Notes under the pieces: model-generated
Database searches by the model: none
Told to the model about the DNA's origin: nothing
Seen by the model: only the letters and a program-made list of their open reading frames with translations
From: Phycisphaerales bacterium
GTDB taxonomy: Bacteria; Planctomycetota; Phycisphaerae; Tepidisphaerales; Tepidisphaeraceae
DNA: 64,000 nt
NCBI GenBank assembly: GCA_020847375.1
Contig: JADLCB010000015.1
Span: 86,752 to 150,751, forward strand
Direction of reading: 5' to 3'
Shown: piece by piece, positions 12,459-25,134 of the stretch
How positions within the stretch are numbered: the first letter of the stretch is position 1
Layout: every line of letters begins with the position of its first letter
Made by a program: the position numbers and the translations under genes

Positions 12459-12536
12459 CAGGGCAAACGCAAGTAGGCGTCCGACAGGCAATCTCTTACG
12501 AGCCGCGACCGTCAGGGAGCGGTTTTTGAGCCGATC
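12459..12536 (+). repeat. Partial copy of the dispersed repeat found complete at 23987-24088
   Basis: The left arm 12459-12497 starts CAGGGCAAACGCAAGTAG and is followed by a 39-bp core at 12498-12536 that is identical to 24026-24064. The left arms of the two copies have equal length (39 bp), so the copies align without gaps over 78 bp. The first 26 bases here match, at 25 positions, the reverse complement of the right end of the other copy, which shows that the parent element had long terminal inverted repeats. The right arm is missing or degenerate here, and I see no flanking duplication. It lies between two lipoprotein genes. Confidence 0.8.
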
Positions 12537-12572
12537 ATCGCTCCAGACTGGTCTTCTCACGCCAGTGTTGGT

Positions 12573-22843: not shown

Positions 22844-23171
22844 GGGTTTCCCCCGGCTATGTTAGCAACAAGTTCGATACGCGCACAAAGCAGCAGGTGA
22901 TAATTATTGGCTGGTGTCACTCCCATTTCCCCTTCAATGAAAATAATACACCCCTGCGCCTCATCGTGCGTCAGCATGCGCCTTGCTGTCGATTCGATTT
23001 TATGCTTGTTTTGGTCTTATTTCTGCCGAATTTTTATTTTAATGATCCTCATCGACCTCCAGAACGCACAACAGGTTGACAGCCGTCGCCAATCAGTGAA
23101 GATTGCCCGATAAATACCCTTTTTCGCTACCCGACAGTGCGTATCTCGCGATGCGCTGGAGCATTGTTGTC
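22844..23171. other. Intergenic region between dinG and the PAP2 phosphatase
   Basis: 328 bp between divergent genes. A perfect -35-like TTGACA is at 23076-23081, but no good -10 hexamer follows at the right spacing. I see no gene or strong secondary structure. Confidence 0.45.
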
Positions 23172-23948
23172 ATGATACAACCTAAACCTGCAAACTGGCG
23201 CTTTAACGGCTTGTTGATTGCGCATCTGCTGGCCGGGCTGCTGATTGGCAGTTGGTGGCTGGCGCCGACGCGCCAAATCTGGGACAGCATCGACGAATGG
23301 GTCGCCATCAACCTGAATGGGTTGCTGGCGCACGGTCACGGGTGGCAGATTTTCTGGGCGATCACCAACGCCAGGATTTTTGATCTGGTCGCTGCCGGCA
23401 TCATGATGGGGTTGCTGCTGTTGTATCTTTGGCGCGGCGGTGCAGCCGAACAGTTCAATCAACGTCTTGCCCAGATCACGTTTATCGGTATGTACCTGCT
23501 GGTCGTCGTCACGATCAGCCATAAATTTCTTTTCAAAAACGTCGGACGGCACAGCCCATCTTTGATGCTCGAACCCTTTTATCTGCTTTCGGATCTGCTG
23601 GATGATCTGCGGATCAACTACAAAATTTCGTCAAAAAATTCCTTCCCTGGCGATCATGCCACCGTCGTCGCGGTATTCGCCGGTTTGTTCTGGACGATTG
23701 CCAACTGGCGCTACGGGCTGGCCGCAGCCGTTTTGGCGCTGCTGTTCATTCTGCCCCGACTGGTCGGTGGTGCGCATTGGTTGACCGATACGCTGGTCGG
23801 CGGTGGTGCAATTGCGCTGATTGCCGTCAGTTGGGCCGTGGCAACGCCGCTGGCAGCGACGATCATCCAACGCCTGACTGATTTTTTCGATGCCCTAGCC
23901 AGACGAATCGACCGCCGGCGTCAAGACCAGCGCCAACCCAGCAGTTGA
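23172..23948 (+). CDS. PAP2-family membrane phosphatase
   Basis: 258 residues from the ATG at 23172, which has GGAG ten bases upstream; in-frame ATGs at 23103 and 23151 are alternatives. Several membrane segments carry the three PAP2 motifs: KFLFKNVGRHSPS (C1), SFPGDHATVV (C2, with PGDH replacing the common PSGH) and RLVGGAHWLTDTLVG (C3, with the catalytic histidine). Such enzymes remove or transfer phosphate on lipid phosphates, undecaprenyl diphosphate or lipid A at the outer face of the inner membrane. Which substrate applies cannot be read from the sequence. Confidence 0.88.
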   Translation: MIQPKPANWRFNGLLIAHLLAGLLIGSWWLAPTRQIWDSIDEWVAINLNGLLAHGHGWQIFWAITNARIFDLVAAGIMMGLLLLYLWRGGAAEQFNQRLAQITFIGMYLLVVVTISHKFLFKNVGRHSPSLMLEPFYLLSDLLDDLRINYKISSKNSFPGDHATVVAVFAGLFWTIANWRYGLAAAVLALLFILPRLVGGAHWLTDTLVGGGAIALIAVSWAVATPLAATIIQRLTDFFDALARRIDRRRQDQRQPSS

Positions 23949-23986
23949 TCCCCTATTCTCAAAGACGAAAAATCGTTCTGCCAATA

Positions 23987-24088
23987 CAGGGCAGTCGCAA
24001 ATAGCCCGCGAAGGTCGATGTATTAACGAGCCGCGACCGTCAGGGAGCGGTTTTTGAGCCGATCGGACGCTTACTTGCGTTTGCCCTG
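23987..24088. mobile_element. 102-bp miniature inverted-repeat element (MITE-like)
   Basis: Begins CAGGGCAG and ends TTGCCCTG. The two ends form imperfect terminal inverted repeats, with 14 of the first 17 positions matching. A perfect 10-bp direct repeat, TCTGCCAATA, flanks it at 23977-23986 and 24089-24098, as expected for a target-site duplication. The interior 24026-24064 is identical to 12498-12536 in a second, partial copy and contains a hairpin (CCGC-GA-CC, loop GTCA, GG-GA-GCGG). It has no coding capacity, so it would need a transposase in trans. It sits between the PAP2 gene and the dehydrogenase gene. Confidence 0.85.
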
Positions 24089-24153
24089 TCTGCCAATACG
24101 ACTACCGCCCGGTATTGTATTGCAACATAACGGTTCGTGTTATACTCGCGACC

Positions 24154-25134
24154 ATGCCCACAAATCAGCCCGCCATCTGGTCAAATGTGCATTACAACCC
24201 CGAAGCCATCGCCCAATTTGAACAGGGAATTTCGGCGTACCGAATATTGTGGGCGCAAGTGCGCCATGCTTCCAATCTCGTCGAAGTCAGTGCCGATCCG
24301 AAACTGGCTGATGCCAATATCGTCTTTGGTCAACCCGAAGTTGCCGGTGCAATGGCAGCTGAAAATTTGCGCTGGATTCATCTGACTACCGCCGGTTACA
24401 CCCGTTTTGACACGCCGGAATTTCGTCAATTCGCCAAAAAGCGCAACCTCGTCTTAACCACCAGCTCCAGCATCTACTCCGAACCATGCGCTCAACATGT
24501 GGTTGCGTATATTTTCGCCCAGGCGCGGTTGTTGGGGGAGACTTTTCGTATTCAGTTATCCGAGCGCAGTTGGAACAGCCTGCCCCTGCGTCAGCGCTGC
24601 ACCCTGCTGGGCGGTCAGCGTGTTCTGATTTACGGTTTTGGTGCCATTGCCCAGCGCGTGGTTGAGCTGCTGGCGCCATTGCAACTGGACATCATTGGTG
24701 TGCGCCGTCAGCCCAGCGGACAGGAATCAGTTAAAACGATCACCGTCGCAGATGCCGAAACCCTGATCGGCGAAGCGGATATTATCGTCAATCTTTTACC
24801 AGCCAACGCTGACTCCAACGGGTTTTTCAATGCTGAACGAATCAGCAAAATGAAATCCACTGCCCTGTTCATCAATATTGGTCGGGGGGCGACGGTCGAT
24901 CAGGCAGCCTTGCACGATGCCTTGTCCCGCGGAAAACTCGCAGCAGCCTACCTGGATGTCGCCACACCCGAACCACTGCCACCGGAAAACCCGCTGTGGA
25001 CACTATCAAACTGCCACATCACCCCGCACAACGCCGGCGGTTTCAGCGGCGAAGGCCAAGCCATTGTCCAGTATTTTCTGGAAAATCTGCGACGCTTTGA
25101 AACGGGTACACCGCTGGCCGATCGCGTGCTCTAG
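24154..25134 (+). CDS. D-isomer 2-hydroxyacid dehydrogenase
   Basis: 326 residues from the ATG at 24154 (MPTNQPAIWSNVHYN); the longer frame from 24115 adds a peptide unlike the family. The NAD(P)-binding motif is VLIYGFGAIAQRVVELL. Catalytic residues fit the family: Arg in FINIGRGATVDQAAL, Glu in VATPEPLPPENPL and His in CHITPHNAGG. These enzymes reduce 2-keto acids to D-2-hydroxyacids or the reverse. The specific substrate is not evident. Glycerate or hydroxypyruvate-type activity is possible. Confidence 0.88.
   Translation: MPTNQPAIWSNVHYNPEAIAQFEQGISAYRILWAQVRHASNLVEVSADPKLADANIVFGQPEVAGAMAAENLRWIHLTTAGYTRFDTPEFRQFAKKRNLVLTTSSSIYSEPCAQHVVAYIFAQARLLGETFRIQLSERSWNSLPLRQRCTLLGGQRVLIYGFGAIAQRVVELLAPLQLDIIGVRRQPSGQESVKTITVADAETLIGEADIIVNLLPANADSNGFFNAERISKMKSTALFINIGRGATVDQAALHDALSRGKLAAAYLDVATPEPLPPENPLWTLSNCHITPHNAGGFSGEGQAIVQYFLENLRRFETGTPLADRVL

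Follow-up and report, generated by a model that had tools for sequence, protein, structure and literature searches.

What is the short element that lies between a PAP2-family gene (23103–23948) and a 2-hydroxyacid dehydrogenase open reading frame (24115–25134), both on the + strand, in a 64,000-nucleotide stretch of a Phycisphaerales contig (the window), and which enzyme moved it? The sequence-only reading had described a 102-bp element at 23987–24088 with CAGGGCA/TGCCCTG ends and an exact 10-bp flanking duplication. These coordinates proved exact, with TCTGCCAATA on both sides, and the parts of the element, together with those of a second copy in the window, are as follows.

23977–23986, no strand: left 10-bp target-site duplication, TCTGCCAATA
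23987–24088, + strand: MITE of 102 bp, shorter by 41 bp than the 143-bp form
23987–24004, + strand: left terminal inverted repeat, CAGGGCAGTCGCAAATAG, with the perfect 7-bp core CAGGGCA
24028–24050, + strand: REP hairpin, GAG followed by CCGCGACCGTCAGGGAGCGG, with tandem G-A mismatches and a GTNA loop
24051–24064, + strand: spacer, TTTTTGAGCCGATC; the junction of the 41-bp deletion is an ATC microhomology at 24062–24064
24070–24088, − strand: right terminal inverted repeat, CAGGGCAAACGCAAGTAAG on the − strand
24089–24098, no strand: right 10-bp target-site duplication, TCTGCCAATA
12459–12544, + strand: second, truncated copy with one end, CAGGGCAAACGCAAGTAGGC (12459–12478), and one REP (12503–12522), after which similarity is lost

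On the + strand of the window, TCTGCCAATA occurs only at these two positions, and the direct repeat around the element can be extended to 11 nt via a shared first C. CAGGGCA and TGCCCTG form a perfect 7-bp inverted repeat within a pair of 18-nt arms with 83% complementarity; the common family form of the left terminal inverted repeat is CAGGGCAATCGCAAGTAG. The CCGC-GA-CC-GTCA-GG-GA-GCGG hairpin is located at 24031–24050. Compared with a 143-bp copy (L002), the window copy lacks 41 bp between two ATC trinucleotides and has one REP, whereas full-length copies have two in inverted orientation. A 101-bp copy elsewhere in the genome (G000:C3:263830) has a junction similar to that of the window copy.

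A search of the genome that holds the window (G000; 3.02 Mb in 31 contigs, 94.8% complete) with a 122-bp query from the window returned 106 matching pieces, and a search for the ends with up to three mismatches returned 82 matches, versus 28 for a reversed control pattern. The family comprises 41 whole or partial places with an element length of 102–143 bp, and 26 of the 30 two-ended copies are 142–144 bp long. It is thus a MITE family by its short length, its many copies without a transposase gene, its terminal inverted repeats and its target duplication of fixed length. The full-length order is left end, subterminal stretch, GAGCCGCGACCGTNAGGGAGCGG, short spacer, inverted REP, second subterminal stretch and right end, with two inverted copies of the hairpin CCGCGACCGTNAGGGAGCGG in the 143-bp form. 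The variable loop base N is identical in both REP arms in 21 of 24 readable copies (three differ), all four bases being represented. In six of 33 distinct stretches the spacer has the opposite orientation with respect to the ends (five of the six rows were left unclassified by the script and called by eye; one is truncated). The agreement of the arms and the inversion of the spacer would fit repair or recombination between REP arms. A separate observation concerns C2:65907–66292 (L051), where a 63-bp unit of one element half is repeated six times head to tail beside a single element end; this small tandem array looks to have grown from the MITE.

Target-site duplications were scored in the 30 two-ended copies, the other 11 of the 41 places being excluded because one end is missing or was not recognised. 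Left and right flanks agree best at length 10, with a mean identity of 0.677, against 0.233–0.370 at lengths 5–9 and 11–15. The 10-bp flanks match at eight or more positions in 17 of the 30 copies and exactly in 10; when left and right flanks from different copies were paired as a swapped-flank control, one of 870 pairs reached 8/10 and none was higher. Thirteen copies fall below 8/10 and are without a clear in-register duplication, and shifts of up to 2 bp reveal a near-register repeat in five of these (C3:263830, C5:163724, C2:107901, C2:37642 and C8:56662). The sequence-only reading had held that its flanking match would be chance if other copies lacked duplications and shared ends; in G000 the 17 copies at 8/10 or better show otherwise, and the multi-copy ends and 10-bp duplications support its proposal of a non-coding MITE moved in trans.

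These data also bear on the idea that the flanking match is accidental and surrounds a structured RNA or a terminator hairpin. The hairpin does fold better than its shuffles as RNA (−14.8 kcal/mol, z −3.4), and less clearly so as DNA (z −1.5); the REP core on its own, in which four stem pairs, a G-A/G-A internal loop and two further pairs lead to a loop of four bases, gives z −2.75 as RNA and z −1.5 as DNA. However, there are about 40 related copies, many with duplications, an Rfam search of 23900–24200 returned no match, and a scan for intrinsic terminators (hairpin plus T-run) made no call at the hairpin, its sole call being on the − strand at 23978–23994. A chance repeat is therefore hardly credible here, and we proceed with a transposed element.

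Candidates for the enzyme that moved it were sought among relatives. PF13808 (ISAs1-family) genes are present in five of 14 chosen genomes, and the ISAs1 elements of relatives combine PF13808 with PF01609. In G254, which belongs to the same family as G000, all six examined ISAs1 copies (of nine) are 1313 bp long with exact 10-bp duplications, their ends being GAGGGCAATCGCAT and CAGGGCGATTGCAT. G111 carries a 1328-bp IS with a 10-bp duplication on C94, a 1495-bp IS on C76 with the right flank CGAGAAAATG, identical to the left flank on contig C17 (a 10-bp duplication if C17 is the left neighbour), and an IS on C193 with no duplication. For G302 and G260 a single end near a PF13808 gene was read, with no duplication read, and a right end sought for G260:C237 was not found. 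The best identity with any of three MITE end forms over 20 bases is 19 in G302, 17 in G260 and 13 in both G254 and G111:C94; for C76 and C193 of G111, identity to the best MITE end form is 18 and 17 at the left ends and 16 and 16 at the right ends. No IS with exactly the MITE ends was found. ISAs1 elements in general make 8–10-bp duplications. The excerpts of two papers on Paracoccus/Pseudomonas transposons (PMC3281130; PMC4133298) hold nothing on duplication lengths.

Similar ends and 10-bp duplications in the ISAs1 elements of relatives make a DDE transposase of the ISAs1 type the most likely and best-supported mover of the family, ahead of a RAYT. Like the ISAs1 family (PF13808/PF01609), the MITEs have CAGGGC-type ends and the 10-bp duplication length that was read in IS of the same bacterial class (G111:C193, which has none, excepted); they differ in having no transposase gene, a length of 102–143 bp, a REP pair inside and no cognate IS in the assembly. 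The PF13808 search of G000 gave no matches at 94.8% completeness, the G254 transposase as a single protein query gave none in a search without a positive control, and no transposase gene with the MITE ends was found in the assembly. Near lone ends on contigs C2, C3, C17, C25 and C27 no autonomous copy was seen (in the sequence of all five and the ORFs of three); an integrase-like frame on C27 near a weak end match was dismissed by eye as unrelated. Since no ISAs1 transposase was found in its own assembly, the MITE family looks orphaned in G000. The check proposed by the sequence-only reading, a search for a transposase or RAYT-like gene bearing these ends, gave none in the G000 assembly; similar ends occur on the relatives' ISAs1 elements.

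The missing cognate transposase could also be read as pointing to another DDE transposase family, one making 9–11-bp duplications, with the likeness to ISAs1 ends a coincidence; the end identity of just 13/20 for the best-sampled ISAs1 element (G254) agrees with this. We consider it unlikely, given the 17–19/20 matches to the MITE ends near a PF13808 gene in G302, G111 and G260 and the 10-bp length of the readable ISAs1 duplications (G254, G111:C94 and G111:C76). In a class-wide search for the ends with up to one mismatch, 22 of 298 genomes match, only G000 (59) and G111 (9) exceed two, and single matches in the other genomes are no commoner than with a reversed pattern. This last result counts against the ISAs1 reading, as do the failure to find an ISAs1 transposase in G000 or an IS with exactly the MITE ends, the IS on G111:C193 and the 13 copies below 8/10. 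Across the order, three of 26 genomes match, the 25 genomes other than G000 being of other genera.

Granted an ISAs1-type mover, the hairpin inside the element requires its own account. It had been suggested to act as an RNA or protein-binding structure; the tandem G-A hairpin itself was confirmed, and it is best read as the REP of a separate, RAYT-linked system carried within the MITE. The exact core CCGCGACCGTNAGGGAGCGG is present in four of 199 genomes of the phylum (60 copies in the own genome, 299 in G081, 62 in G198 and one in G104), with no match in any of the 199 for the reversed pattern. A scan of species genomes found at least 116 stretches with the core, which among the matches listed come from Planctomycetota, Acidobacteria, Myxococcales, Gammaproteobacteria including Legionella, Anaerolineae and Ardenticatenia, and IMG/VR holds 69 stretches with the core.

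Core-rich and core-poor genomes alike carry PF01797 genes (32 of 34 searched), and exact cores lie within about 1.5 kb of four of the 30 first-scanned PF01797 loci (L249, L263, L266 and L270). Among 40 hand-chosen PF01797 loci, REP cores (up to two mismatches) lie on both sides within 1 kb in seven of nine class-3-like loci, all seven in other genomes, versus none of 31 others (Fisher p = 1.9e-6), a test that is partly circular, since class-3-like denotes frames with motifs like HGSTRY and YGTWLHG and the motif was picked after the flanked proteins had been seen. Two of the 31 other loci have a REP core on one side. Five loci (L352–L355 and L357) were included since they were already known, and without them the counts are four of five versus none of 30. 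G081 has the most cores (299), yet each of its three examined PF01797 loci falls outside the class-3-like group and is not flanked by the core. In L352, on a contig of the gammaproteobacterium Legionella shakespearei, a class-3-like RAYT gene is surrounded by 12 REP copies (up to three mismatches), a locus that hints at transfer across phyla.

The class 3 assignment follows Quentin et al. (2018; PMC6006769), in excerpts of which class 3 TnpA_Y1 proteins have the motifs NHVH, W[TA] and Y....Q and class 3 hairpins have the foot CnGA and number about 600 in Solibacter usitatus. Six REP-flanked or own-genome proteins with the class-3 pattern (L331, L335, L343, L352, L354 and L357) all have W[TA] and Y....Q; four have NHVH, and L343 and L357 have THVH. 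The 5′ foot of the REP is CCGA, CAGA, CGGA or CTGA among other genomes and ACGA in G000; the excerpts give CnGA. Protein motifs, high-copy hairpins and occurrence in Planctomycetes, Acidobacteria and Proteobacteria are thus shared with class 3 as far as the excerpts describe it, whereas the hairpins here sit within a terminal-repeat element with target duplications. The sole PF01797 match in G000 is a class-3-like 188-aa frame (G000:C29:14041–14604; L357:3042–3605), and this RAYT-like gene is flanked not by the window REP but by a variant REP, GAGCCGGAAGCGTTAGCGACGG, of which G000 has 12 copies (up to two mismatches), six of them on C29:12751–14735 around the gene. The variant has a similar fold, its internal loop being three-by-two, and folds no better than its own shuffles.

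A link to RAYT genes raises the alternative that the family is a REPIN, a REP pair amplified by a RAYT, with the outer ends and duplications secondary or chance. Full-length copies do consist of two inverted REPs with a short spacer, and the same REP surrounds RAYT genes in other genomes. Yet Y1 transposition is not known to leave a duplication, and the family has outer inverted ends and 10-bp duplications; 67 of the 71 REPs in G000 lie beside a terminal repeat (no more than 90 bp from an element end), and the remaining four are those of the 63-bp tandem array at C2:65907–66292; and the only PF01797 gene found in G000 is flanked by a different REP. Amplification as a REPIN is accordingly very improbable, and the REP pair is better regarded as cargo of an ISAs1-type MITE.

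Known systems share single features with this arrangement. REPINs (Bertels and Rainey 2011; PMC3116915) share the inverted REP pair with the full-length copies and differ in the outer ends and duplications found here and in the single REP of the window copy, which by that token is no REPIN. QMITE2 of Coxiella burnetii (PMC10969869, in excerpt) is a REP-containing MITE and so a precedent for an internal REP; its REP is of the GTAG type, however, and the likeness concerns the internal REP. TIRtrons/TIRYT, according to excerpts of Di Nocera et al. (2013; PMC3733652), likewise combine terminal inverted repeats with tyrosine transposases, but have the tyrosine transposase gene itself between these repeats, whereas here the 10-bp-duplicated ends enclose a REP. 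Among the matches listed in a search of open-licence papers, none concerned ISAs1 MITEs with REPs.

REP pairs also occur between other ends. In 17 examined stretches of G198 (62 cores), the pair lies between ends other than those of G000. Ends of the form TAGAGCGGTTTCA...TGAAACCGCTCTA are intact in L036, L421 and L422, changed by one base in L325 and more altered in L039 and L424, and a second type, CGTGTGTGAGAAG...CTTCTCACACACG-like, occurs in L321, L420 and L324. L418 pairs an end of the first type with one of the second, and the remaining examined stretches show neither clearly. The two terminal-repeat types have unrelated sequence, and TA at both ends may point to IS630-like elements.

RAYT domains also turned up inside enzyme genes. 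In G198, G216 and G222, a class-3-like RAYT and its REPs lie in frame within valS, and the one Val_tRNA-synt_C match of each genome is in the RAYT-bearing frame. Three further frames, two IleS-like and one MmeI-like, also contain PF01797 stretches, with no core-encoded peptides found in them.

L354:762–4790: RAYT-bearing valS frame
L318:417–4265, − strand: RAYT-bearing valS frame
L353:634–4953, − strand: RAYT-bearing valS frame
L372:1484–6001 (− strand), L346:808–5106 (− strand) and L371:713–5170: the IleS-like and MmeI-like frames with PF01797

A protein search with the ValS insert returned 123 proteins, including the query's own. The best 120 of these (P0001–P0120) are 752–1768 aa long, with Pfam matches mostly to ValS, AlaS and DNA methylases, and the RAYT part could be located by motif in 91. 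REP-like peptides, such as the REP-encoded PLPHGRGS and TSRDRxGA, lie on both sides of the RAYT part in 69 of the 91, on one side in 18 and on neither in four; the same loose patterns give 84 matches in 80,491 aa of the remaining host parts, so that a single flank is expected by background in about one in eight. Sixty-four of the best 120 match a ValS reference in two parts, with the insert at about reference positions 350–400 in 63 and near 478 in P0073, the insert boundaries against this reference being blurred. A model of P0040 (37 rows; mean pLDDT 82.6, pTM 0.71) predicts the ValS parts with confidence and scores the RAYT core (residues 490–590) at about 74–91, with values below 50 at 414–434, 448–470, 600–621 and 700–712. 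REPs alone within genes, tRNA synthetase genes among them, are described in excerpts of Di Nocera et al. (2013; PMC3733652); among the matches listed in the open-licence literature, no paper concerned RAYTs inside tRNA synthetases.

Taken together, the window element is, with good probability, an ISAs1-type MITE in which a class-3 REP pair travels as passenger, moved in trans by an ISAs1-family DDE transposase. In the mechanism that we infer, a small transposon that encodes no transposase, bounded by CAGGGC inverted ends and flanked by a 10-bp target duplication, would move by a cut-and-paste reaction catalysed in trans by a DDE transposase of the ISAs1 family, an enzyme absent from view in the G000 assembly. 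The MITE would have captured a REP pair, which was then presumably amplified as a passenger, and the REP hairpin would belong to a class-3 RAYT (HUH) system whose RAYT may recognise it. A wider and more doubtful proposal, which we offer tentatively, is that the class-3 REP is a universal passenger, riding in ISAs1-type MITEs here and in other terminal-repeat elements elsewhere, while its RAYT persists in frame inside essential genes (valS, alaS), the REPs being translated as linkers.

The repeat family is thereby explained as a chimera of two mobile systems, with DDE-type ends outside and an HUH-type hairpin inside, which offers a route by which REPs may multiply without their RAYT, and a hairpin of several phyla is now tied to a gene partner. 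If the wider proposal were true, this would be a mobile system with borrowed vehicles for its repeats and an unlosable hiding place for its enzyme, and the RAYT domains within the sole ValS matches of three genomes make the persistence of the RAYT directly testable.
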